DNA from: Candidatus Woesearchaeota archaeon
Lineage (GTDB): Archaea; Nanobdellota; Nanobdellia; Woesearchaeales; WJKL01
Assembly: GCA_018221125.1 (NCBI GenBank)
Contig: JAAOYC010000057.1
Location: 1 to 38,677 of the forward strand
Direction: 5' to 3'
DNA length: 38,677 nt
This document shows positions 9,518 to 38,677 of the stretch, in pieces. The position numbers and the translations under genes were made by a program. The notes under the pieces are model-generated. The model was not told where the DNA came from, did no database searches, and was given only the letters and a program-made list of their open reading frames with translations. How positions within the stretch are numbered: position 1 is the first letter of the stretch; each line of letters begins with the position of its first letter.

Positions 9518-10957
9518 ATGGTATCAAAAGAAGAACTTGAAAATTTAACTGAAATAGAGCTTAGTTTGCTGAAGAATTTTCAGGATCAGATAGACACATT
9601 GCACAGGCATGAACGTTATGTTTACAGATTGGTAAGAAGACTAAAAAGATTAAGAAAATGTATGGAAAAGGGAGATGAAAAAGAGGCTAATTCTTCTTTT
9701 GATGAAATCAAAGGCATTATCCAAGTTCTGAAAAGCGAAATTTTGGAGAAATTCAAGATATTAAAATCAGAAGCAGCAGCAGAAGAGATTCAGCAAACCA
9801 TGAATTATGAAAGAAAAAGAGGCCAGGCTTTCATAGATATAAAAAAATTCCTCATAAATACCTACAATAAACTTGCTAAAGAAGAAGAACTGCTGCAAAA
9901 AAAGAGAACATTAGCTGAAAGAAAGATAAGAAGAGCATTGATAAAATTAAGAGAAGGGATTGAAGAGACAGGTAGGAGAGGATTAAAATTAAATGAGCAG
10001 GTATTTTTATTAATTGAAAAACTGCATGAATTTAAAGAAACATTATACAACTTAATAGCCTATGAATATCAGCTTCTTAAAAATATAGAAAGTAATTTCT
10101 CAAGCAATCTCAAAACAGATGAAAAAATAGAAAAATTCGAAGATATAGATGGAAGGTTAAGGCAGGCTATTGTCAATATCAAAAAACATTTGAGAACAGA
10201 AAAAGAAGAAGTCTACAAGCCATTGATGAATCTCATTGGAAAAGAGATAAGCGGAGCAGAAGCCTTTTTCAGATTAAAAGAAAAAAAGAAAGGAGAGATA
10301 ATAACTTTGGATGATATAAAATCAGACATCTATACAATGATTGATTCCATGGAAATCCTTGAATATCTTTCTGCACTAGAAGCAAACAGGGATATTATTG
10401 AAGAAAAAGCATGGCCTCACATCTATAATTATAAAATAAAAGCCCAGGAGATTGTGGAGAAAATAAAAAAAGAATCTATTGTAGACCCTCTGACAGGATT
10501 ATTCACCAAAAAATTGATGTGGGCCCAATTAGATAACTTAACCTTTGGCTCAGCAGGAAAGCCAGATTCATTCTCAGTTATAATCATGGATATAGATAAT
10601 TTCAAATCTGTCAATGACGTATTGGGCCATCTTGTAGGTGATTCTGTTTTAGCCAAAGTTGCAAGATTGATAAGAGCAAATGTAAGAAACAGCGACATTG
10701 TATGCAGATATGGGGGGGAAGAGTTTGTTATCATAATGCCTAGAACAAAAGCAGCAGAAGCGATTTTAAAAGCAGAAGAGACTAGAAAAGCTGTAGAGAA
10801 GTATGAATTTGGCTTAAGAGACAGGAGAAGGGTAACAATATGCGGAGGAGTTGCTAGCTATGATGGAAAAGTAAGCAAAGAAGAGCTTATAGCATTTGCA
10901 GATGAAAAGCTGTATAAAGCCAAAAGAACACCTGGAAAAAATACTATTGTTTCTTAA
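9518..10957 (+). CDS. Coiled-coil GGDEF protein (putative diguanylate cyclase)
   Basis: Long charged helical N-terminus; DPLTGLF, MDIDNFKSVNDVLGHLVGD, RNSDIVCRYGGEEF (intact RxxD I-site spacing). Confidence 0.88.
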   Translation: MVSKEELENLTEIELSLLKNFQDQIDTLHRHERYVYRLVRRLKRLRKCMEKGDEKEANSSFDEIKGIIQVLKSEILEKFKILKSEAAAEEIQQTMNYERKRGQAFIDIKKFLINTYNKLAKEEELLQKKRTLAERKIRRALIKLREGIEETGRRGLKLNEQVFLLIEKLHEFKETLYNLIAYEYQLLKNIESNFSSNLKTDEKIEKFEDIDGRLRQAIVNIKKHLRTEKEEVYKPLMNLIGKEISGAEAFFRLKEKKKGEIITLDDIKSDIYTMIDSMEILEYLSALEANRDIIEEKAWPHIYNYKIKAQEIVEKIKKESIVDPLTGLFTKKLMWAQLDNLTFGSAGKPDSFSVIIMDIDNFKSVNDVLGHLVGDSVLAKVARLIRANVRNSDIVCRYGGEEFVIIMPRTKAAEAILKAEETRKAVEKYEFGLRDRRRVTICGGVASYDGKVSKEELIAFADEKLYKAKRTPGKNTIVS

Positions 10958-24406: not shown

Positions 24407-24973
24407 ATGGTAGAAGATAGTGTATTCAGAGGTGTAATAGTTTTCTTTGACAAACTAGGGATTTATGATGTAGTTCTTCCTTTCTTGCTTATATTTACAA
24501 TTGTTTTTGCTATTCTAGAAAAGACAAAAGTATTGGGAACAGAGGAAATAGAAGGAAAAAAATACACAAAAAAGAATCTGGATGCTATGCTTGCTTTTGT
24601 AACATCTTTTCTTGTTGTTGCATCAACAAAACTAGTTGCAGTGATTAATGAAGCTATAGCAAACACTGTCTTGCTGCTGTTGTTAGTTATCTTATTCCTG
24701 TTGTTAGTTGGCTCATTTTTCAAAGAAGGAGAGGATGTTGCTCTTGAAAAAAGTTGGAGAACTTTTTTCATGACAGCGATGTTCATTGGCATTGTATTAA
24801 TCTTCCTTAATGCATTGAATTGGCTTGAGCCATTCTGGGATTATTTGACAGACCACTGGGAAACGCAATGGGTTGCTTCGCTGATATTGTTGATTTTCAT
24901 AGTATTATTCATTTACTTTATAACCAAAACCCCAGGATCCCCTGCAAAATCAGAAGAAAAATCAGAAGAATAA
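24407..24973 (+). CDS. membrane protein, paralog 1 of a tandem triplet
   Basis: VVLPFLLIFTIVFAILEKTKVLG motif plus several TM segments. Confidence 0.75.
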   Translation: MVEDSVFRGVIVFFDKLGIYDVVLPFLLIFTIVFAILEKTKVLGTEEIEGKKYTKKNLDAMLAFVTSFLVVASTKLVAVINEAIANTVLLLLLVILFLLLVGSFFKEGEDVALEKSWRTFFMTAMFIGIVLIFLNALNWLEPFWDYLTDHWETQWVASLILLIFIVLFIYFITKTPGSPAKSEEKSEE

Positions 24974-24987
24974 AGAGGTACTAAAAA

Positions 24988-25554
24988 ATGGCTATATTTG
25001 AAGAGGGTATAGAATTCCTTGAATCAATGGGAATAGCAGATGTCTTGCTGCCTTTTCTATTAATATTCACAATTATTTTTGCTATTCTGCAAAAATCAAA
25101 GCTGTTAGGAGAAAACAAAAAGAATTTCAATGTTATCATTGCTTTGATAATTGGATTAAGTGTTGTAATACCTCATGTTCTTGATACTTATCCTTCTGGT
25201 CTCGATGTTGTAGACATAATAAATGAGGTGCTTCCTCAAATTTCATTAGTGGCCATAGCATTTATCATGCTGCTTATACTGGCAGGAATTGTAGGGGCAA
25301 ATATCTCAGGAAGCTCATTTGCAGGATTTTTTGTTGTGCTCGCAGTCATAGCAGTAACAGCGATATTTGGTTCAGCACTTGGCTGGTGGGAATCAGCATG
25401 GTTTTATGATTTCTTTGGAGAAGAAGCAGTATCTCTCGTAGTTATGATACTTATATTTGGGTTGATAATCTGGTTTATAACAAGAGACGAATCAAAAGGA
25501 CAGAAGATTGGAGGAGCAATAAAAGACTTTTTTGATTTTATGGCAGGTAAATAA
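24988..25554 (+). CDS. membrane protein, paralog 2 of a tandem triplet
   Basis: VLLPFLLIFTIIFAILQKSKLLGENKKNFNVIIA. Confidence 0.75.
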   Translation: MAIFEEGIEFLESMGIADVLLPFLLIFTIIFAILQKSKLLGENKKNFNVIIALIIGLSVVIPHVLDTYPSGLDVVDIINEVLPQISLVAIAFIMLLILAGIVGANISGSSFAGFFVVLAVIAVTAIFGSALGWWESAWFYDFFGEEAVSLVVMILIFGLIIWFITRDESKGQKIGGAIKDFFDFMAGK

Positions 25555-25556
25555 AC

Positions 25557-26132
25557 ATGGAAACATTTCTTGAACTCGGGGTTCTGAATTATTTTTCTAT
25601 AATATTTCCAGCATTATTGGTGTTTGTAATTGTCTTTGCTATATTAGAAAAGACAAAAATGCTTGGAGAAAGCAAATCAATCCATGCGATTGCAGCAATA
25701 TGTGCTGCATTCCTGGTGATGCTTTCAAAAGATATCCTATCCATAATCAGTTTTGGAGCTCCTTGGTTTGTGCTTGTTTTTGTTTTCCTTGTATTGCTTC
25801 TCATGATATATAGATTCATGGGAGCTTCAGAAGCAGACATTTCTTATGTTATTACAAAAGACAGGCCAATCCAGTGGACTATTTTTATAATAGCAATAAT
25901 CATAATTATTGCATCAATTTCTAATGTATATGGCCAGAGACTTCTAGAAAAAGCCCAAGGTGAGGGCTTGACTATAGAAGAATATAAAGAAAAGGAAGAA
26001 GCAGAAGGAAGAACATTTAGAGGAGAATTACATAATACTATTTTCAATGCAAAGATTTTGGGCATGATGCTGATGTTTCTTATAGCTGTCTTTACAATCT
26101 CATTATTATCAAGAGAGTCGATAGCCCACTAA
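25557..26132 (+). CDS. membrane protein, paralog 3 of a tandem triplet
   Basis: IIFPALLVFVIVFAILEKTKMLGESKSIHAIAA. Confidence 0.75.
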   Translation: METFLELGVLNYFSIIFPALLVFVIVFAILEKTKMLGESKSIHAIAAICAAFLVMLSKDILSIISFGAPWFVLVFVFLVLLLMIYRFMGASEADISYVITKDRPIQWTIFIIAIIIIIASISNVYGQRLLEKAQGEGLTIEEYKEKEEAEGRTFRGELHNTIFNAKILGMMLMFLIAVFTISLLSRESIAH

Positions 26133-26134
26133 TC

Positions 26135-26830
26135 TTATTTCTTTTTTCCAGAAGAAGGCTTCATTTTTTTAGCAAGCCTGGAAAGTTCATTTACATTTGA
26201 AGTAAAAGTAGGAAGTACTTTTTTGAAAACCTGTTCCATTGCTTTTACATCAGTGCTCACTCCTTTGATTCCTTTGTCATACTCAGATACTTTGCTCAAA
26301 ACACCAGAATGCAGTGCTTCAAATCTTTCTTTCAAATCCTTGAATTTCTGCTCCATCTTGGCGATCCTAGATTCTGTTAATTCTTTCCATTCAATGATCT
26401 TGTCAACATTTTTCATTAGCTCTTCCCATTTCTCATCAATTATAGATTCTGCAACTTCTTCAATAGCTGTTTTATCAACAGCCGGTGCTGCTGCAGGCAT
26501 TGCAGGCGCATAAGCCGGCGGCATTGCAGGGGGAGGCATAGCTTCAGGAGGGGGCATTGGCTGTGATTCAGGAGCAGGTCCTCCAGGTGGTGCTGGTGGT
26601 GCTCCTTCTCCTACTCCTCCTTCTCCTCCTACGGCTCCTTTTATATCAGCCTGGCTCATAGCATCAAATATCTGTGAAGAACTGTAGCCTTCCTGCTGTA
26701 AAGTCTGAATAACCTGATCATTAGAAACTCCTTGCTGCCTCATCTCAATAACTCTATCAGTTGGTATCCCTTCTGGAGCAGCTGCGCCAGGTGCTGCTGG
26801 TTTCTTTTTCCCTAATCCAAATAAAGCCAT
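26135..26830 (-). CDS. Protein with N-terminal UBA-like helical module, Pro/Ala/Gly linker and C-terminal coiled coil
   Basis: TDRVIEMRQQGVSNDQVIQTLQQEGYSSSQIFDAMSQ; PAPPGGPAPESQPMPPPEAMPPPAMPP; KMEQKFKDLKERFEALHS. Confidence 0.75.
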   Translation of the reverse strand: MALFGLGKKKPAAPGAAAPEGIPTDRVIEMRQQGVSNDQVIQTLQQEGYSSSQIFDAMSQADIKGAVGGEGGVGEGAPPAPPGGPAPESQPMPPPEAMPPPAMPPAYAPAMPAAAPAVDKTAIEEVAESIIDEKWEELMKNVDKIIEWKELTESRIAKMEQKFKDLKERFEALHSGVLSKVSEYDKGIKGVSTDVKAMEQVFKKVLPTFTSNVNELSRLAKKMKPSSGKKK

Positions 26831-26881
26831 TTTATATCCCTCTTTTTCTGTTAATATCCTTTATAACATATATAAAGATTT

Positions 26882-27337
26882 CTATTTGCCTTTTTCCTCA
26901 AGCTTTTCTTCAACTATCTTTTCAACTTCTTCTCTTGTAGCAAAATTAACAGGTTCCCATAGATCAACATATTTCCTGATTACTTCAATATCCTCTTTTA
27001 CTGCAAAGCCTTTCAATGAATCTACAACCATGTCTGTTCTTACTTTCAGATCATTCAGCTCTTTCTTTATATCAAGAACATCAGAATCATTAGTCTTTAA
27101 TTCGCTGGCAACTCTTTTCCTTTCATTCAGCATATTCTTCTCAGTTACTTCAATCTTCCTGTTTAATTCAGTATATCTGCTTTCAAGAATCCTCAGCCTT
27201 CTCGCAACCTCATTGACCTGCCCAATAATAACAGCAACATCAGGCCCTGCCTCTTCTTTTTTCTTCCCAAACAGCCCACCAAGTTCAAATCCTTTTTTCT
27301 TATGAGCTTCTTGTCCTTGCATAGGCATTTCAGGCAT
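26882..27337 (-). CDS. coiled-coil protein of the pilus-like locus
   Basis: Long heptad-rich helix RLRILESRYTELNRKIEVTEKNMLNERKRVASELK, C-term FATREEVEKIVEEKLEEKGK. Confidence 0.7.
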   Translation of the reverse strand: MPEMPMQGQEAHKKKGFELGGLFGKKKEEAGPDVAVIIGQVNEVARRLRILESRYTELNRKIEVTEKNMLNERKRVASELKTNDSDVLDIKKELNDLKVRTDMVVDSLKGFAVKEDIEVIRKYVDLWEPVNFATREEVEKIVEEKLEEKGK

Positions 27338-27365
27338 TTTAAAGTAAAATATACTAAACTAATAT

Positions 27366-28385
27366 TTAAAGGTATATGATATCCTTATCAATTTCATGTT
27401 TATGTTTGATTACAATATCTATCTCAGCTTTATCAAAAATTAAATTACTTATGCCTAAAACTTTGCATGCTTCTAAATATAAAATAAAGAATTTTGCAGG
27501 CCCTAGTTTTTTTATCTTATTAAAAGTGTATTCAAACGTCTTCAATGGAACCTTTCCAAAATATAATTGTTGTCTATGCAAATAATGTTTAATTTTGCTA
27601 ATATTAATTTTATTCTTTCCTTTTTTATCCAAAAATATCTGAATATTCTGTTTGTTCTTAATCATATGCATAAATAAAATAAAATAACACATCATACCTC
27701 CTAAAAAATAAAAATTAGTATAATTAGAACTTACCCATGCAAGAATATCTTCTTTTGGTTTTTTGCTCTTAAGTAATTTCTTTTTAACAGTTAATAATTC
27801 TGCTTTAAATTTGTTAACATAAGAAATATAATCTAAATTAACATCTTTTTCTCTTGCAATCTTAGTTATTTTATGGGCATCTTCATCAAACAGATTGTCC
27901 CCTAATTTTGCATAAAACATCCTAAGATTTGCCAATCCATCTATTCTTAAGCTATGTAGTATCATGCTTAGTAAATTTTCTTCTTCTTTTTCAGAAACAA
28001 GATGTGAGTTATGCCATCTGCTGGCTATAACTCTATCATGCCAATGAGTTAATTCATGAATCAACATAGGATAAAAACCTTTAGGATCCTTAAAATAATA
28101 ATTTGCATTAAGATTCAAATAACATTTTTTCAATTTTGGATGTTTCCAATATCTAAACTGGCCGCCATAAGGAAAATCTTTCTTAGGTAGCAACCTAATC
28201 CCTACAACCATTCCTTCTTCAATAAATTCAGGATGAGATTTAAAAGCCTGATATAACTGGCTTTCTAAAACAGCTATTTTATTTTTACCAAAAGAACTCA
28301 ATAATTTTTTCTCGATTAATATAATTAATCTAAATCCAAGCCCTTTAAAGTTTCTATGCCTAAATGCCTCATCTCTAAACAACAT
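27366..28385 (-). CDS. putative HExxH zincin-like protein
   Basis: FYPMLIHELTHWHDRVIASRWHNSH. Confidence 0.6.
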   Translation of the reverse strand: MLFRDEAFRHRNFKGLGFRLIILIEKKLLSSFGKNKIAVLESQLYQAFKSHPEFIEEGMVVGIRLLPKKDFPYGGQFRYWKHPKLKKCYLNLNANYYFKDPKGFYPMLIHELTHWHDRVIASRWHNSHLVSEKEEENLLSMILHSLRIDGLANLRMFYAKLGDNLFDEDAHKITKIAREKDVNLDYISYVNKFKAELLTVKKKLLKSKKPKEDILAWVSSNYTNFYFLGGMMCYFILFMHMIKNKQNIQIFLDKKGKNKINISKIKHYLHRQQLYFGKVPLKTFEYTFNKIKKLGPAKFFILYLEACKVLGISNLIFDKAEIDIVIKHKHEIDKDIIYL

Positions 28386-28448
28386 ATGTTATTATTTCAC
28401 ATACAGCTATTTAATTCTTACTAATTTAGATAGATTTATATACTAAAC

Positions 28449-28502
28449 ATATTATAAAATACATATAATATATGAAGTATTACAAAATATATTTTATAAT
28501 AT
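28449..28502. promoter_or_regulatory. 13-bp perfect inverted repeat upstream of the RHH-pilus ATPase operon
   Basis: ATATTATAAAATA (28449-28461) and TATTTTATAATAT (28490-28502), between TATA box (~28434-28444) and ATG 28504. Confidence 0.5.
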
Positions 28503-28503
28503 A

Positions 28504-28650
28504 ATGGCAAAGCGCCCAATCTCAGCAACAATTGATAAAGAACTGATTTCTTGGATAGAAAAAGAACTCAAAGATAAAAAAAAGTACAGAAATAAGTCTC
28601 ATCTAATTGAAACAGCTCTAGAGTTATTAAAGGAGGGAAAAAATGGCTGA
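28504..28650 (+). CDS. 48-aa ribbon-helix-helix (CopG-like) regulator
   Basis: MAKRPISATIDKELISWIEKELKDKKKYRNKSHLIETALELLKEGKNG; overlaps the start of the downstream ATPase gene by 8 nt; not in the ORF track. Confidence 0.78.
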   Translation: MAKRPISATIDKELISWIEKELKDKKKYRNKSHLIETALELLKEGKNG

Positions 28651-30916
28651 ACCATATTCATATGATTTAATCAGGGAGGGAGAAGAGGTTATACTTAGAA
28701 TAGACTGCGAAACCCTGGCTTATATTCCATCTATAGAAGACAATTCAACTGTAATGGCTAAAACCCTGGGCATTCTCATGGAAACCGGACCTGTAACTAA
28801 GATTGTTTTTGCCCAGAAAAGGGATTATGAATATGATTTCTATCAAACCCAGCTTTTGATGGAAATATCTCAGCTCTATAACAGGCTGGCAAAGCAAAAA
28901 GAATTATTCTCATATTATGGAACAGGCGCTGAATGTGAAAAATGGTTTTCTTCAAGATATGCAAAGATCCGCCTGCTGATCTTCAGGCTTCTGAAAGAGG
29001 ATCCATTGGGAGCATATGTCTCATTAAAAAGAGAATATAGAAGAGAAACGATTGAGTTTGAAAAAACAATTGACCAAAGATATCTGGAATGCCAGAAAAA
29101 ATACATGTCTTTGCTGGATTATTTGATAAAAGAGCTGGACAAGACAAGATTGATCACAATAGCAAGGCCTTATCTTCCAGGATATATTTTAGAAAAAAGA
29201 GCTGTCTATCGAAGAATCTTCAAGCCAACAATAAAGCCTGATTTCATGTTTACAAAATTAATGGCATCATATCCAGAAGACGGAGAAGATATGGCAGCCT
29301 ACACTCTGGAAAAGAAAAGCTCAGAAGTGACAATCTTCAAGCTTCCAGATAATGTCCAGTATCTTTATCATTTGATCCCTCCTGAATTCAGGCTTTCTGA
29401 GGAAAAATATGAAATCCTGGATCTAGCAAGAAAGATTATGGCAGAGCACAAGCCAAAAAAACAGGAATTTATTGACCCTGAAAGAATGCGGACAGTATTC
29501 TATAATGTGGGTTATGACTTGATTGAAGAACTTTCAAATTACAGAAATACAAGGCTAAAAGAAGATGAGATAGATGAACTCACAGAGATTCTTGTAAGAT
29601 ACACAGTTGGATTTGGATTGATAGAAGTTTTGCTGCAAGACAAAAAAATCCAGGATATCACAATAAACAGCCCAGTGGGCCAAACCCCGATGTTTTTGGT
29701 GCATGCTGATTATGGAGACTGCACAACCAATATTATCCCAACACCTCCTGAATCTGAATCCTGGGCTTCAAAACTTAGAATGATTTCTGGAAGACCTCTG
29801 GATGAGGCAAATCCTGTCTTAGATACAGAGATAACCATTCCTCAAGCAAGAGCAAGGATAGGAGTCATAGCTCCTCCATTAAATCCCTCTGGCCTGGCAT
29901 TTGCATTCAGGCGCCATCGTGACCAGCCATGGACACTTCCTTTGTTCATAAAAAACAGGATGATCAATCCATTAGCAGCAGGGCTTATGAGCTTTATTAT
30001 AGACGGAAACAGGACTATGCTTATTGCAGGAACAAGGTCTGCTGGAAAGTCCTCTTTCCTTGGTTCAATCCTTGTTGAAATCATGAGAAGATATAGAATC
30101 CTGACAATTGAAGATACGCTGGAACTTCCAACATCTGCATTAAGAAAGATGGGTTATAATATCCAGTCAATGAAAGTGCGCTCTGCATTAGCAAAAAAAG
30201 GGGCAGAAGTCTCTGCAACAGAAGGAATCCGTACATCTCTAAGAATGGGAGATTCTGCATTGATTATAGGAGAAGTAAGAAGCAAGGAAGCTCTTGCATT
30301 ATATGAAGCAATGAGAGTGGGTGCAATGGCCAATGTTGTAGCAGGAACAATCCATGGTGAAAGCCCTTATGGAGTATTTGACAGGGTTGTAAATGACTTA
30401 GGCGTCCCAAGAACTTCATTCAAGGCAACTGACTTGGTTGCTGTAGCAAATCCAATAAAAAGTGCAGATGGCATGCAGAGATGGAGAAGAATCACTCAGA
30501 TAACTGAAGTAAGAAAAGAATGGGAAAAAGACCCTCTTCTTGAAAATGGTTTTGTTGACTTGATGAAATATGATGCAAAAACAGACGAGCTTATTCCTTC
30601 AGATGAGCTTGTAAATGGAGAATCAGATATCCTAAAAGCAATTGCAGGAAATGTAAAAGAATGGGCTGGAAATTGGGATGCTGTATGGGATAATGTGACC
30701 CTAAGGGCAAAAACAAAAGAAACTCTTGTTAAATACAGTGAAAAAGCAAAAATGCCTGATTTGTTAGAAGCCCATTTTGTAGTTCTATCCAATGATATGT
30801 TCCATAAATTTTCAGAATCAGTCAGAAAAGAAGTTGGTTCCTTGGACAGCAAGAGGATATTCTTTAACTGGGACAACTGGCTGAAAAAAGAAATCAAAAA
30901 AATAAAGATTAAGTAA
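28643..30916 (+). CDS. Type II/IV secretion (ArlI/TadA/GspE-like) ATPase
   Basis: MLIAGTRSAGKSSFLGSIL Walker A, ILTIEDTLELP, SALIIGEVRSKEALALYEAMRVGAMANVVAGTIHGESP. Confidence 0.9.
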   Translation: MAEPYSYDLIREGEEVILRIDCETLAYIPSIEDNSTVMAKTLGILMETGPVTKIVFAQKRDYEYDFYQTQLLMEISQLYNRLAKQKELFSYYGTGAECEKWFSSRYAKIRLLIFRLLKEDPLGAYVSLKREYRRETIEFEKTIDQRYLECQKKYMSLLDYLIKELDKTRLITIARPYLPGYILEKRAVYRRIFKPTIKPDFMFTKLMASYPEDGEDMAAYTLEKKSSEVTIFKLPDNVQYLYHLIPPEFRLSEEKYEILDLARKIMAEHKPKKQEFIDPERMRTVFYNVGYDLIEELSNYRNTRLKEDEIDELTEILVRYTVGFGLIEVLLQDKKIQDITINSPVGQTPMFLVHADYGDCTTNIIPTPPESESWASKLRMISGRPLDEANPVLDTEITIPQARARIGVIAPPLNPSGLAFAFRRHRDQPWTLPLFIKNRMINPLAAGLMSFIIDGNRTMLIAGTRSAGKSSFLGSILVEIMRRYRILTIEDTLELPTSALRKMGYNIQSMKVRSALAKKGAEVSATEGIRTSLRMGDSALIIGEVRSKEALALYEAMRVGAMANVVAGTIHGESPYGVFDRVVNDLGVPRTSFKATDLVAVANPIKSADGMQRWRRITQITEVRKEWEKDPLLENGFVDLMKYDAKTDELIPSDELVNGESDILKAIAGNVKEWAGNWDAVWDNVTLRAKTKETLVKYSEKAKMPDLLEAHFVVLSNDMFHKFSESVRKEVGSLDSKRIFFNWDNWLKKEIKKIKIK

Positions 30917-30977
30917 AAAACCGATGGAGTTGGTGCCAAATTTACGAGCTAAAAAATAAAAAAGAGGAAATTTAAGC

Positions 30978-33164
30978 ATGCCGCCTCCTGAACCTCCTAA
31001 AATTGATGAATTATTAAAGAAATACAAGCAAAGAATAGGAAAAGAGCTGGACTTAACTCCTGAAGCAGCAGTTGCAAAGCCTACTTTCTCCCGCGAATAT
31101 AAGCAGTTCAAAAAAGAGTACCTCCCAAAAAGACTTTCATTCTATGAAAAAGCATGCAACATCAGCGGACGAATCCTTAAGCTGACTCCTGATAAAAAGA
31201 AAGCAGCATTGATGCAGGAAGATCTCAATACCTGCCATCTTAACATAACTCCAACAGGAGTTCTTTCATTTGCAGTTCTTGCCCCCCTATTGATTATCTT
31301 ACTTGGCTCTTTAATCTCATTCGCTATATTCGAAGCATTATTCTTTGTAGTATTCTTCTTGATAGTAGGGCTGGTTATTATATCACCTCTGATGAATATG
31401 CCCCGTTATTTGGCAAACAACTGGCGTATGAAAGCCTCAAACCAGATGGTTTTATGCATATTTTACATGGTAACCTATATGAGGCACACTTCTAACTTAG
31501 AACATGCGATAAACTTTGCAGCAGAACATTTGTCTCCTCCATTATCCCTTGACTTAAAAAAAATACTCTGGGATGTTGAAACTGAAAAATATGAATCAGT
31601 TAAAGAATCTTTAGATGAGTATTTAGAAACATGGAGAAAATATAATAAAGAATTCATAGAAGCGTTCCATCTGATTGAATCCTCTCTTTACGAGCCGTCT
31701 GAATCAAGAAGATTAAGCCTTTTGGACAAATCACTGGATGTAATCCTTACAGAAACATATGAAAAGATGCTTCATTATGCTCATAATCTTAAATCTCCAA
31801 TTACAATGCTGCACATGCTTGGAATAATCCTTCCGATTCTGGGGTTAGTGATACTCCCTCTTATTGTGAATTTCCTTGGAGAAGTTAAATGGTATCATAT
31901 AGCTACATTATATAATATTGTTCTTCCAATTGGAGTTCATTTTCTTGGAAAATCTATACTTTCGAAACGTCCAACAGGTTATGGAGATACAGATATCTCA
32001 GAAGAGAATCCTGAACTTAAAAAATACAGGAATGTTCTTATAAAGATAGGGGGATTCGAGCTTGCAATAAATCCTTTAGTTATCAGCATTGTCATAGGAG
32101 TGATCTTTTTCTTGATTGGAATGAGCCCATTGCTAATGCACTCCCTTGATATCCCTGATATCGGCTTCTTTGGAGTTGATGGATCAACACCTTGCGGCTA
32201 CAAATACTGTCTGTTAGAATACAGGCAAAGTTCTTCTGAACTAACACCTGACAAGATAGTGGGGCCTTATGGGATTGGCTCGGCTATTCTCTCTGTATTT
32301 GCTGTCCTGGGTATAAGCTTGTCTTTTGGGATCTACTATAAACTAAAATCAAAGAATGTGATAAAAATAAGAAACAAGGCTAAAAAACTTGAAGATGAAT
32401 TTGCATCTGCATTATTTCAGCTTGGAAACAGGCTTGGAGATGGCTTGCCAGCAGAGATTGCATTTGGCAGAGTCGCAGAAGTCATGAAAGATAGTGTTTC
32501 TGGAAGTTTCTTTGAAGTTGTAAGCTCAAACATAAGAAGGATGGGGATGTCTGTAGAACAGGCTATATTCAATCCTAAAACCGGCGCAATTGTTTACTTT
32601 CCTTCCAAGATGATAGACTCCTCAATGAAAGTCCTGATACAATCCATCAAAAAAGGCCCAAAAGTTGCTGCACAATCCCTGACCAACATTGCAAGATACA
32701 TAAAGGAGATCCACAAGGTAAATGAAAGATTAAGAGACCTTATGGCAGATATCATCTCTTCAATGAAAGCCCAGATATCATTCCTGACGCCGGCAATTGC
32801 AGGCATTGTTGTTGGAATTACTTCAATGGTTACAACTATCCTTGGAAAACTTGGAGGGCAGCTTGGAAAATTGGCAGAGACAGGAGAAGCAAGTGCAAGC
32901 CAGCTGAACTTGGTAAGCATGTTTGGAGACGGCATTCCAACATATTATTTCCAGTTGATAGTGGGACTCTATGTAGTGCAGATAGCCTATATCCTGACAA
33001 TAATCTCAAATGGGATAGAAAACGGCTCAGATAAACTAGCTGAAAGATATGCTCTGGGAAACAACCTGACCAGAAGCATTGCCCTATATGCCATAATAAC
33101 CTTGTCTGTCATGCTGCTGTTCAATATAATAGCAGGACAGATAATGCAAGTTACATTTGTATAG
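30978..33164 (+). CDS. Type II secretion F/TadC-family platform protein (two T2SSF-like halves)
   Basis: Two soluble helical domains each followed by TM helices (MKASNQMVLCIFYMVTYMRHTSNLEHAINFA...; LEDEFASALFQLGNRLGDGLPAEIAFGRV...); directly downstream of the ATPase. Confidence 0.85.
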   Translation: MPPPEPPKIDELLKKYKQRIGKELDLTPEAAVAKPTFSREYKQFKKEYLPKRLSFYEKACNISGRILKLTPDKKKAALMQEDLNTCHLNITPTGVLSFAVLAPLLIILLGSLISFAIFEALFFVVFFLIVGLVIISPLMNMPRYLANNWRMKASNQMVLCIFYMVTYMRHTSNLEHAINFAAEHLSPPLSLDLKKILWDVETEKYESVKESLDEYLETWRKYNKEFIEAFHLIESSLYEPSESRRLSLLDKSLDVILTETYEKMLHYAHNLKSPITMLHMLGIILPILGLVILPLIVNFLGEVKWYHIATLYNIVLPIGVHFLGKSILSKRPTGYGDTDISEENPELKKYRNVLIKIGGFELAINPLVISIVIGVIFFLIGMSPLLMHSLDIPDIGFFGVDGSTPCGYKYCLLEYRQSSSELTPDKIVGPYGIGSAILSVFAVLGISLSFGIYYKLKSKNVIKIRNKAKKLEDEFASALFQLGNRLGDGLPAEIAFGRVAEVMKDSVSGSFFEVVSSNIRRMGMSVEQAIFNPKTGAIVYFPSKMIDSSMKVLIQSIKKGPKVAAQSLTNIARYIKEIHKVNERLRDLMADIISSMKAQISFLTPAIAGIVVGITSMVTTILGKLGGQLGKLAETGEASASQLNLVSMFGDGIPTYYFQLIVGLYVVQIAYILTIISNGIENGSDKLAERYALGNNLTRSIALYAIITLSVMLLFNIIAGQIMQVTFV

Positions 33165-33232: not shown

Positions 33233-33922
33233 ATGAAATTTGATTTATCAAAAATTAGATTAAGCAAAAATGACATAAATAAAGGACTAACATTACCTAA
33301 AAAGTCTTCTAAAGAATTAGCAGAGTTTATTGGTATATTGGCTGGAGATGGGCATATTAGCTTTAATACATGTCAATCTAAAATTCTTATCACTTGTAAT
33401 TTCTTAACAGAGTATGATTATTTAACCTATGTAAAAGGATTAATCTTAAAATTATTTAACATTAATGTAAAAGTTCGTAAGAGAAACAATATAAATGCAG
33501 CAATTATATGTTTTTACTCCTCAGCATTAGTCTCTTTCATGAATCAAATCGGCTATTATAAACATAAAATTAATATTATCATTCCTAGTTGGATAAAAAC
33601 AAATGACACTTATATGGCTACATTTACAAGAGGGTTATTCGATACCGATGGTTGTGTATTCGTTTCTGATAAAGCTGGATCGCCTAAATATCCTTGTGTA
33701 GAATTAACAACCATTAATTTAAAATTAGCTGAAGATATTAAGAAATTTCTAGAAAGAAAAAAATTCAGAACATCAAAAGTAAGATCTTACTATTATAGGC
33801 ACAGTAATAATGCATCCTACAAAGTTTCAATATATGGCTGGTTAAACCTTTCAAGATGGTTAAAAGAAATAGGATTCTCAAATCAGTATAAATTAAATAA
33901 AGCTTTAAGATATAGAAAATAA
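33233..33922 (+). CDS. LAGLIDADG-type homing endonuclease
   Basis: LAEFIGILAGDGHI and FTRGLFDTDGCVF motif pair in 229 aa. Confidence 0.87.
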   Translation: MKFDLSKIRLSKNDINKGLTLPKKSSKELAEFIGILAGDGHISFNTCQSKILITCNFLTEYDYLTYVKGLILKLFNINVKVRKRNNINAAIICFYSSALVSFMNQIGYYKHKINIIIPSWIKTNDTYMATFTRGLFDTDGCVFVSDKAGSPKYPCVELTTINLKLAEDIKKFLERKKFRTSKVRSYYYRHSNNASYKVSIYGWLNLSRWLKEIGFSNQYKLNKALRYRK

Positions 33923-34945: not shown

Positions 34946-37900
34946 TTACCTTAGTCTGCTCAACTCCCTGTTTATTTTATCAAGCTGCGAATCAATTACA
35001 TCTTCCTCAATCACAGCCGCTTTCTTAGGCTTGATTAGCTTCTTTCTGGGAATTTTATGTTCTTTGAAATATTCATCACAATATTTATCTACAAATTTCT
35101 TTGGCCAGCCTTCAAATACTAATGCTTCTTTGGCTTCTTCGGGTGTTATTCCCTTCAATATTGCATTTCCAAGGAATACATCTAACCTGCCCTTATACCC
35201 TCCCTTTCTTTGTTCATGGAATGCTTTTTCTTTTCCACGGGAAATTCTTCTTTCTTCAGCAGCCCTGATTTCAAGTTCTCTTTGCCGGGCATGCTCAATC
35301 TCTCTCTGTTTTGCTCTCTTTCCTCTCAATTCTCTTTCTTTCCCAGCTATTCTTTCCTTCTCCCTTCTTCTCAATTTCCTCTTGAAAGCACCATATCTAT
35401 TGCGAATAGCTCCAATTTTTTCCTTCCCTTCTCCCCTTTTCCTCCTCTTGAATGCTATAAATTTCCGGTAAAACATCATTCTTTCATAATTCCTAGATGT
35501 ATAGACACCTAAAATCAGGACACCAGCAGCTAAGATAGTCAGCAAGAATCCTCCAATATTATCTCCAATGAATCCTGCTGCTGCTTTAATCGCCCCAATG
35601 CTTGCTGGAATATATCTGTCTTTTATAAAAGAGCCAAAATCTCCAGTAACATAATTAATTCCATTCCAAAATCCTGAAATAACCTCCTTGCTCCATGGCC
35701 AGTAAGTTCCTGAGATAAATCCTCCTGTATTGATTGTAGCCTCCCTAATAACAGGCCAGGCCTTTTCTGTTAAAAATCCAGTTATAATTTGCAATATTGT
35801 TTTGTAAGTCAAAGGCATTTCAACTTCAGGTCCAGGAGTATAGCATAATCCAGAAGTTGCATTGCAGCTATTTATACAATCACTGTCTGACATACACTGC
35901 TTGCCATCTCCGCAAGGCTTACAACCAGGTCCTCCGCAGTCAATATCTGTCTCATCATAATCCAGGATTCCATCCTGGCAACCAAGATAATATTCACAGC
36001 TTCTGTTTTCCTCTGGCTTGATAAATTCCTGAACATTAGTTATAATCCTCTGATTATATAGATCATCGCATCTGTTCAAATCCCAGCAAGTTCTCCATTG
36101 TGTGCCATTTGGCAGGCATGGGCTCCATTCAGTGCAGTTCCATTCTTCTCCGCAGATTGTTGTCCCTCCTCCTCTTCCAACAGCTGTTGGTGCTGGCGCA
36201 GAAGGACAGGTTCCGCAATCAACATTGCAAATAGGATAATTATTGTCATTGCCGCATGCATTAGGTGAAACACAAGCTCCATCTCCGCATTTAGCATAGA
36301 TATTCTGGAGTGTCCAAGGAGAAGTCAAGTCAATAGGTATCCTATAAATAAATCCTGCATAAGTTACATTGCCTGCATAAACATTCTCATTTGTTATATT
36401 TGAATTGGCTACATATAAATCATGAATAGTCAAAGTGTTGCTATGGTATATATCAGACTGGTTAACAATAGAATTACTCACTACAGAATATTCCACATGT
36501 GAATTATCAAATGTTGAATTTGAAATATTTGTATAGGCAACAGTTGAATCATGCACAATACAAGGCCCACTAATACAAATTGAACCGGTTATATTAGATG
36601 GATCCACCCACCATCCATCCCCGCTTGAATCTTCTATATAGCTATTGTTGCAAAATGAATTGGTTAAGTTTGAATTTATTACAGTGCAGTTAATTGAAGT
36701 AAAGTTAGTTAATGTCGAATCATCGATTGTTGAGTTAGTCACAGTGGAATTAATTATAACTGAGTCATTAATATCTGAATTTATTTCTGTAGAATTGTAG
36801 ATACTGTCATTATAATTAGTAGAATCCACCACAGTGCTGTCTACAACTGTTGAATTAATCTTAGTTGAATTTATAATGGTCGAATTTGTGATATCTGAAT
36901 TATCTATGGTTGAGTCATTTATTGTAGAGTCTATTACTGTAGAATCTGTTATGTTTGAATTGTTTATAGTAGAGTCTGTTATATTTGAATTATCAATTAT
37001 TGAGTCATCAATAGTGGAATTTGTAATGTTTGAATCAGTTACATTTGAATCAATAACTGTGGAGTTGTCTATGGTTGAATCTATTATAGTTGAATTGTCA
37101 ATTGTAGAGTCATCAATAGTGGAGTTGTCAATTGTAGAGTTTGTGATTGTTGAATTATCAATTGTTGAGTTAGTAATGTTTGAGTCAATAATTGTTGAAT
37201 TCGTTACGTTAGAGTCTATTATTGTGGAGTCATTGATGTTTGAATTAGTTTCATTAGAATTAATTATTGTACTATTATTGTTTACTGAATTTGTTACCGT
37301 ACTATTTATGATTGTAGAATCTATCTTTGAGGAATTTGTGATGTTTGAATTGTCAATAGTTGAGTTAATTATTGTTGAATTGTCTATAGTGGAATTTGTT
37401 ATAGTTGAATTAGTTGCATTTGAGTTGTTGATTGTTGATGAGAGGAATACTTGAACAGTAATATCCTCAATAGCTGTTTCTTTATTTCCAACATTATCAT
37501 AAGCTATTGATTGTAATATATATGTCCCATCTGAAGTAGGATTCCATGTATAATTCCAATCTGTTGTTCCTGTTGTATTCACTAAACTTCCACTTATATT
37601 CAATTCTACTCTTTCTACACCAGAATAAGCATCACTTGCATTACCAGTTACATTATATGGAACAGCATTTTGACCCAATGCTTCTTGATCAGCAGGAGTT
37701 ATTATATATGACTCCGGAGGCGTGGCATCTATAGTAAGATTATAAGTCACAGAACTACCTTCATTACGATTTGAGCTACTGTCAGTGCAATTTACACTCC
37801 AATTATACTGCCCATCAGGTAGGGTTGGTGTAAAGAAATTAACTCCATTATTTGTTACAGAACTATTTGTTAGATTAATAGCTCCATTGAGGATTAAACT

Positions 37901-38677
37901 ACAGTTTGCTATTCCTGTACCGTCTGTTACATTATAAACAAGGGTGATATTATTTGTTGTCGTGTTTAAAGTATTGTTTGCTGGAGAGATTAGTGTTATA
38001 TTTGGAGGGGTTGAATCTAATTGCAATATTGTCAAATTATTACTGCAATTCGTATCTCCATCCCAACTGCCATCATTTGGTGTTATGCATGCCTGCCAAA
38101 CATCTCCAACAGTGGTTTCTTGGCTGACAATCAAATCTGTTCTGTTATTATACAATGCAAGGATTTGTTCTGCTGAAAGTGAACGGTTATAGATTCTTAC
38201 TTCATCTACTGTTCCGTCGAACAGCTCGCCATTGACTCCATCCACGCTTCCCCCCCATCTTGTGCCTATTTTTAGAGTACTTGGGATTAAATTTGTTTGG
38301 TATGTGCTTGTTTGGTTTAATATTCCATTTAAATACAGAAAAAGGGTACCATTAGTATATGTTACAGCCACGTGATTCCATCCAGTACTTACTTCTCCTG
38401 CTGTAATGGTTGTTCCATTACCATATTCAAAGACCCGTGCACCATTGTCAGTTGCTCCGTATAAGCTTCCGTTCCAGACTGCTAAATCAATGACTTCTGT
38501 AGTCCCAAGCTGCCCTAAATCTATCCAGGTTGTTCCTCCTTCATATCTGTAAACCTTTCCTGAGTTATATGTTCCGCCATACAAGCTGCCATTCCAGACT
38601 GCCATTGACCAGACAACAGTCTCTGAGCCTAGTCTTCCTACGTCTGTCCAGGTTGTTCCGCCGTCATATCTGTAAAC
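34946..38677 (-). CDS. Giant surface protein, N-terminus beyond window: propeller-like repeats, LamG, Ig-like, pentapeptide repeats, TSP1-like and Cys-rich modules, TM, basic cytoplasmic tail
   Basis: Frame stays open to the window end (VYRYDGGTTWTDVGRLGSETVVWSMAVWNGSLYGG...), so the listed Met at 38605 is internal; domain motifs read directly. Confidence 0.9.
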   Translation of the reverse strand, partial: VYRYDGGTTWTDVGRLGSETVVWSMAVWNGSLYGGTYNSGKVYRYEGGTTWIDLGQLGTTEVIDLAVWNGSLYGATDNGARVFEYGNGTTITAGEVSTGWNHVAVTYTNGTLFLYLNGILNQTSTYQTNLIPSTLKIGTRWGGSVDGVNGELFDGTVDEVRIYNRSLSAEQILALYNNRTDLIVSQETTVGDVWQACITPNDGSWDGDTNCSNNLTILQLDSTPPNITLISPANNTLNTTTNNITLVYNVTDGTGIANCSLILNGAINLTNSSVTNNGVNFFTPTLPDGQYNWSVNCTDSSSNRNEGSSVTYNLTIDATPPESYIITPADQEALGQNAVPYNVTGNASDAYSGVERVELNISGSLVNTTGTTDWNYTWNPTSDGTYILQSIAYDNVGNKETAIEDITVQVFLSSTINNSNATNSTITNSTIDNSTIINSTIDNSNITNSSKIDSTIINSTVTNSVNNNSTIINSNETNSNINDSTIIDSNVTNSTIIDSNITNSTIDNSTITNSTIDNSTIDDSTIDNSTIIDSTIDNSTVIDSNVTDSNITNSTIDDSIIDNSNITDSTINNSNITDSTVIDSTINDSTIDNSDITNSTIINSTKINSTVVDSTVVDSTNYNDSIYNSTEINSDINDSVIINSTVTNSTIDDSTLTNFTSINCTVINSNLTNSFCNNSYIEDSSGDGWWVDPSNITGSICISGPCIVHDSTVAYTNISNSTFDNSHVEYSVVSNSIVNQSDIYHSNTLTIHDLYVANSNITNENVYAGNVTYAGFIYRIPIDLTSPWTLQNIYAKCGDGACVSPNACGNDNNYPICNVDCGTCPSAPAPTAVGRGGGTTICGEEWNCTEWSPCLPNGTQWRTCWDLNRCDDLYNQRIITNVQEFIKPEENRSCEYYLGCQDGILDYDETDIDCGGPGCKPCGDGKQCMSDSDCINSCNATSGLCYTPGPEVEMPLTYKTILQIITGFLTEKAWPVIREATINTGGFISGTYWPWSKEVISGFWNGINYVTGDFGSFIKDRYIPASIGAIKAAAGFIGDNIGGFLLTILAAGVLILGVYTSRNYERMMFYRKFIAFKRRKRGEGKEKIGAIRNRYGAFKRKLRRREKERIAGKERELRGKRAKQREIEHARQRELEIRAAEERRISRGKEKAFHEQRKGGYKGRLDVFLGNAILKGITPEEAKEALVFEGWPKKFVDKYCDEYFKEHKIPRKKLIKPKKAAVIEEDVIDSQLDKINRELSRLR
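36637..37445 (-). repeat. About 54 tandem pentapeptide repeats, consensus (S)(T/N)(I/V)X(N/D), encoded by a degenerate 15-bp DNA period
   Basis: STINN SNATN STITN STIDN STIIN STIDN SNITN ... SNLTN SFCNN SYIED counted in register in the translation. Confidence 0.9.

Follow-up and report, generated by a model that had tools for sequence, protein, structure and literature searches.

A pentapeptide-repeat solenoid dense in N-glycosylation sequons in a predicted surface protein of a Woesearchaeales archaeon

Introduction

Pentapeptide-repeat (Rfr) proteins, among them HetL, MfpA, Qnr, AlbG, Nostoc NP275/NP276 and the designed beta1, share a five-residue repeat with a small residue at position i-2 and a hydrophobic residue at i. 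Their published consensus permits Asn at i-1 as well as Ser/Thr at i+1 (PMC7337050), and four pentads make one coil of the solenoid (PMC8145042). The luminal domain of SV2C is a pentapeptide solenoid that lies outside the cytoplasm and bears functional N-glycans (PMC8145042). SV2C is an animal protein with about five coils and no sequon-laden array, and we compare it with the present protein at the level of the fold only. TibA and Ag43 are surface adhesins built on a beta-solenoid, TibA being heavily decorated with sugars; both are bacterial, O-glycosylated and secreted as autotransporters.

Large surface proteins are among the main suspects in the contact of DPANN archaea with their partners. 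The SPEARE and other giant proteins of Nanohaloarchaeota are described, in the sections of the reports considered here, as large proteins that carry adhesion domains (LamG or others), a C-terminal transmembrane (TM) helix and a cytoplasmic tail, and one of the giant proteins has propellers and Ig-like domains (PMC6642349, PMC10266531).

Here, we describe a protein of a Woesearchaeales archaeon that has features of both groups. It shares with Rfr proteins the five-residue repeat with a small i-2 and a hydrophobic i residue, in an array that far exceeds eight tandem repeats and matches them in sequence and fold. It differs from them in using Ser/Thr-Ile/Val in place of Ala-Asp/Asn-Leu, in lying within a large, apparently membrane-anchored surface protein, and in coupling Asn at i-1 to Ser/Thr at i+1, a coupling that canonical Rfr controls lack. 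Like SPEARE proteins, it has an extracytoplasmic LamG domain and a TM helix near the C-terminus. Unlike them, it has no counterpart of the conserved cytoplasmic ATPase domain (VirB4/TraG-like, earlier called restriction) reported in those sections, and it carries a pentapeptide array, which the same sections do not mention. Our literature search, of incomplete coverage, found no paper joining the pentapeptide repeat with DPANN and no description of a densely sugar-tagged pentapeptide column on archaeal cells.

Results

Completed protein and domain order

The window, that is, the whole 38,677-nucleotide stretch of DNA analysed, belongs to a genome of 964,591 bases in 68 contigs (78.6% complete). 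The closest homologues of the protein, from 'Candidatus Woesearchaeota archaeon isolate Bin_028' and 'archaeon isolate DeMMO1_7', are of the same family as this genome, which agrees with a sequence-only reading that had taken the DNA for that of a DPANN archaeon and places it in Woesearchaeales. The gene and its parts are as follows:

34946..38677 (-): open frame of the surface protein, its C-terminal 63% (1243 aa), running off the window's high-coordinate edge
38411..38677 (-): last blades of a seven-blade beta-propeller with repeats of 42-44 aa, from sequence and overlap; the other blades lie on contig C20
38162..38410 (-): C-terminal half of a LamG domain interrupted by the propeller (PF13385, E 4.5e-15)
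37517..37717 (-): Ig-like domain, Big_7 (PF17957, E 1.5e-12)
36632..37441 (-): solenoid of 54 pentads, (N/D)S(T/N)(I/V)x, aa 413-682, with 41 sequons
37250..37327 (-): aa 451-476, the first of two internal Lys-(15)-Asn-(10)-Glu motifs that occupy core positions; spacing shared by relatives
36785..36862 (-): aa 606-631, the second of these Lys-(15)-Asn-(10)-Glu motifs, again on core positions; spacing shared by relatives
36293..36631 (-): conserved cap 3' of the array, aa 683-795, with more pentad-like strands
35828..36292 (-): Cys-rich region with CGDG, W-x-C-x-x-W-x-x-C (TSP1-like) and DIDCGG modules
35558..35827 (-): juxtamembrane stretch with no sequons and, in relatives, helical-looking repeat expansions
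35489..35557 (-): transmembrane helix, by hydropathy
34946..35488 (-): basic K/R/E-rich cytoplasmic tail with no sequons, ending in a small conserved GWPKKF domain

Searching the genome at the DNA level located the missing N-terminus, which the earlier reading had proposed to recover from another contig: contig C20 ends in propeller repeats, and its last 59 bases are exactly the first 59 of the window's gene, with reading frames in agreement. Contigs split at a repeat should share such an exact 59-bp stretch, and we infer from the assembly that C20 and the window join into one gene, a collapsed repeat copy being the other possibility. Joined to C20 (G000:C20, L072:4487-6741), the protein has 1975 aa; for a protein called "giant" in the earlier reading, this is modest next to a related one with a frame of 4007 aa. 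The joined protein runs from a hydrophobic segment (signal or anchor) through LamG with the inserted propeller, the Ig-like domain, the solenoid and the cap to the Cys-rich module, the TM helix and the cytoplasmic tail. Propeller and LamG modules had been placed on the N-terminal side from the letters alone, and both the Pfam matches and the C20 overlap bear this out: PF19755 matches the propeller fragment, and removing the propeller, in which we count seven blades by eye, raises the LamG score from 57 to 79.8 bits and widens the profile match from 69-150 to 16-150. The nesting of a seven-blade propeller in a LamG domain (G000:C20 L072:4487-6741 with window 38162-38677) is an unusual arrangement in its own right.

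On the C-terminal side, hydropathy supports the proposed TM anchor, with the cytoplasmic tail beyond it. A C-terminal query matched 84 of 99 relatives, mainly through the Cys-rich modules, which are common in the order. The Cys-rich fragment had no Pfam match up to E 5, TSP1 included, and the earlier comparison with TSP1 thus found no backing. The tail, about 180 aa long and basic, likewise had no Pfam match. Its small C-terminal domain, with the motif GWPKKF(V) (window 35050-35200, -), is common to surface-protein tails in four genomes (also at L054, L055, L058, L059 and L060) and is apparently undescribed in Pfam.

Pentad array and fold

The array consists of 54 pentads in a single phase, as first read from the sequence, and comparison with shuffles upholds the unbroken register: Ser or Cys occupies pentad position 2 in 52 of 54 pentads, a count that never exceeded 22 in 5000 composition shuffles, and up to 25 perfect pentads follow one another (at most four in shuffles). 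Position 1 is Asn in 36 pentads and Asp in 17, position 3 is Thr in 34 and Asn in 11, and position 4 is Ile in 34, Val in nine and Leu in two. A hydrophobic residue recurs at each fifth position in 47 of 54 pentads, with the phase never lost; the seven remaining core residues are non-hydrophobic and some of them (K, N, E) are conserved. Among pentads occurring at least three times, none of 37 copy pairs had identical DNA (mean nucleotide identity 0.77-0.91), indicating that the array is old and maintained at the protein level; this synonymous divergence rules out recent DNA slippage as its origin.

Several lines of computation assign the array to the Rfr-type pentapeptide solenoids, a repeat fold that is itself already known. 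The pentads fit the amended consensus with Ser at i-2, Ile/Val at i and Asn/Asp at i+2, while Thr at i-1 is not listed there. In phmmer searches against PDB sequences, pentapeptide proteins, both designed and natural, matched best, with E-values from 3e-8. The Pfam search suggested by the earlier reading fell short, with PF13599 (Pentapeptide_4) reaching 32.6 bits (E 8.3e-8) against a curated cut-off of 38 bits. Structure prediction, which might have returned disorder, gave strands in most pentads in both AF2 models. With three relatives aligned, pLDDT was mostly about 80 over the array, dropping in the distal part of the cap, and Foldseek matched the model to mixed beta-helices, TibA and Ag43 among them, which does not imply homology. 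With the array alone as a single sequence, confidence was low (mean pLDDT 56, low mid-array), and the top 29 PDB matches were all pentapeptide proteins. TM-scores to known pentapeptide structures were low (0.1-0.4), and together with the pLDDT of 56 this makes the expected coil geometry, a right-handed, four-sided beta-helix with four pentads to a coil, a tentative one. Together, the AF2 strands and the sequence and fold matches support the pentapeptide beta-solenoid that had been proposed.

The length of a coil could not be read from pentad-type periodicity, as no lag stood out along the array. The distance from core Lys to core Glu was 20 residues in seven of seven cases in G280, a genome of another order of the class; 20 residues make one coil of four pentads, in which Lys and Glu could stack, and the spacing thus suggests a 20-residue coil. 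In the window's own family it was 25 residues (once 26) in five cases. The loci with these spacings are the two motifs of the window, L053, L055, L080 and L081. At four pentads per coil and a rise of about 4.8 Å per coil, 54 pentads would make about 13.5 coils and about 6.5 nm, a short column instead of the long stalk first envisaged.

Sequons and their coupling

The array holds 41 N-x-S/T sequons in 270 aa, with at least one in 34 of 54 pentads. This density, pointed out in the sequence-only reading, exceeds what composition yields in both types of shuffle: 21.7 are expected from full shuffles (SD 3.3, maximum 33) and 33.8 when columns are shuffled separately (SD 2.2, p ~0.002). In the window's array, 10 of 11 pentads with Asn at i-1 have Ser/Thr at i+1, compared with 6 of 43 others (p 3e-6). 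The same coupling is found in the other arrays (34/43 vs 20/112, p 1.8e-12) and is absent from canonical pentapeptide controls (27/95 vs 16/67, p 0.59). Asp is close to Asn in shape and is not a glycosylation site. Over eight arrays in six genomes, Ser/Thr stands at i+1 in 42 of 52 pentads with Asn at i-1, in 2 of 10 with Asp and in 16 of 93 with Thr (Asn vs Asp, p 4e-4, which holds with duplicate hexamers removed); repeats within one protein are related, and the coupling p-values are therefore indicative only. For the second form, Asn versus Asp at i+2 was not coupled to Ser/Thr at the next i-1 (p 0.30), and this commoner form of the sequon thus gives no sign of selection by that test. We conclude that at least the N-x-T form appears to be under selection, most simply for N-glycosylation.

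Sequons are confined to the predicted outer side of the protein, being absent from the juxtamembrane stretch and the tail. A search of the window's own genome (78.6% complete) did not detect the archaeal oligosaccharyltransferase STT3, which is present in all five other genomes with arrays and in each of the family's three other genomes. Among Woesearchaeales surface proteins with Cys modules, sequon enrichment was independent of detected STT3 (p 0.40). Genomes without detected STT3 were considered as a natural experiment, which we abandoned: an earlier, smaller sample had hinted at a difference, and the enrichment is about two-fold either way. N-glycosylation of the array is thus supported but unproven. 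As a separate observation, Woesearchaeales surface proteins (L090-L125 and others) show an about two-fold enrichment of N-x-S/T and none of D-x-S/T.

Relatives of the array protein

A strict DNA pattern run over about 400 genomes found arrays in four others (G002, G200, G239 and G280); the arrays of G001 were found through the cap, which makes five other genomes, with a patchy spread. G280 has two array proteins. Counted by one rule, the array has 13 pentads in G002 and 48 in the window. The cap, about 110 aa long, and the Cys-rich region together share 46-47% identity with three proteins of two further genera. Array proteins carry differing outer domains across relatives, so that the arrays behave like a module that surface proteins can exchange. 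One homologue has a subtilase domain. A glycyl-tRNA synthetase gene, identified by sequence, lies upstream on C20 and likewise upstream of the 4007-aa frame of G002, which supports a shared locus. A homologue in G003 without pentads was set aside as an orthologue of the window protein: it and a paralogue on contig C6 of the window's genome each precede a similar gene (MiaB-like by eye), and this shared downstream gene probably makes it the orthologue of the C6 protein instead. A viral origin was rejected, since no relative was found in viral contigs by alignment or by the DNA pattern.

Discussion

The array is real and partly explained: an archaeal surface protein carries a variant pentapeptide solenoid with a glycosylation signature that can be tested. 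We consider it reasonably probable that the whole is a membrane-anchored surface protein with an Rfr solenoid that is N-glycosylated in part, likely for contact with cells or surfaces. Its outer part would be a chain of sugar- or protein-binding modules (the propeller in LamG and the Ig-like domain), followed by the Rfr-type beta-solenoid of about 13.5 coils, the conserved cap, the Cys-rich modules, the TM helix and the basic cytoplasmic tail. The solenoid would turn the Asn of N-x-S/T sequons outward, in both sequon forms, where STT3/AglB would be expected to glycosylate part of the array sites; 41 glycans at once on so short a column are unlikely, and occupancy is probably partial. Such a solenoid would set the binding modules apart from the membrane as a stiff spacer, covered with sugars and presumably resistant to proteases. 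Of the rigid, glycan-coated stalk first proposed, the solenoid and the sequon density beyond composition stand, the stalk's length does not, and a full coat is unlikely. Contact with other cells or surfaces is the likely job of the whole protein, and adhesion is our best guess at its function, given a domain order like that of DPANN proteins proposed for host contact (PMC6642349, PMC10266531). More tentatively, the pentapeptide solenoid may have become, in Woesearchaeales and their relatives, a column dedicated to displaying N-glycans, in which pentads switch from one sequon form to the other (N-S-T and N-x-T), conserved Lys-Glu pairs on core positions pin adjacent coils and relatives vary freely in array length, a reading that we hold as possible rather than probable.

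The same solenoid could owe its Asn/Thr pattern to structure (side-chain ladders, turns and solubility), with sequons as a by-product and little or no glycosylation. The published consensus already permits Asn at i-1 with Ser/Thr at i+1 (PMC7337050), Asn at i+2 is uncoupled from Ser/Thr, STT3 was not detected in the array's own genome and the enrichment does not follow STT3. That Asp at i-1 lacks the coupling that Asn shows, and that canonical pentapeptide proteins lack it too, argues against a structural cause and makes this account unlikely, if by no means negligible. A folded solenoid might itself be doubted in favour of a disordered, mucin-like glycosylated linker rich in Asn, Ser and Thr, as the low-complexity composition and the low mid-array confidence of the alignment-free AF2 model would allow; the in-phase hydrophobic residue in 47 of 54 pentads, the strands in both models, the pentapeptide matches by sequence and by fold, the conserved Lys-Glu spacing and the conserved cap nevertheless make such a linker very unlikely.

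Archaeal S-layer proteins are typically glycosylated and TM-anchored, and the protein could be a structural, S-layer-like glycoprotein of the cell surface and not an adhesin. We find this quite unlikely, as LamG, the propeller and the homologue with a subtilase domain better suit binding or processing, and the arrays are patchy: among about 400 genomes the strict pattern picks out four others, and G001 brings the number to five. Least credible of all, and barely so, is an ice- or mineral-binding beta-helix like that of the spruce budworm antifreeze protein, in which outward Thr rows bind. A weak similarity to CfAFP exists (E 0.012, below the cut-off; PDB 1m8n, E 0.061), but there is no regular T-x-T row, Thr standing at both i-1 and i+1 in five pentads, and the pentapeptide matches are far stronger.

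If true, the partly glycosylated solenoid that we favour would add the display of glycans on archaeal cells to the roles of the pentapeptide fold. The array is a compact, expressible unit for which a beta-solenoid and partial N-glycosylation are predicted, and it offers a sequence signature for selected glycosylation sites.

Additional observations

A secretion- or pilus-like cluster (24407-33164) lies near the surface protein:

24407-26132: three small multi-TM proteins
28643-30916: T2SSE ATPase
30978-33164: large multi-TM protein

A LAGLIDADG homing-endonuclease-like protein (33233-33922, +) adjoins these secretion genes. This window of a DPANN archaeon also holds two diguanylate cyclase (GGDEF) genes (351-1853, -, and 9518-10957, +), each with its GGEEF motif intact. 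GGDEF matches were found in 35 of 60 Woesearchaeales genomes and not in any archaeal genome used as a control, a distribution that suggests c-di-GMP-like signalling in Woesearchaeales.
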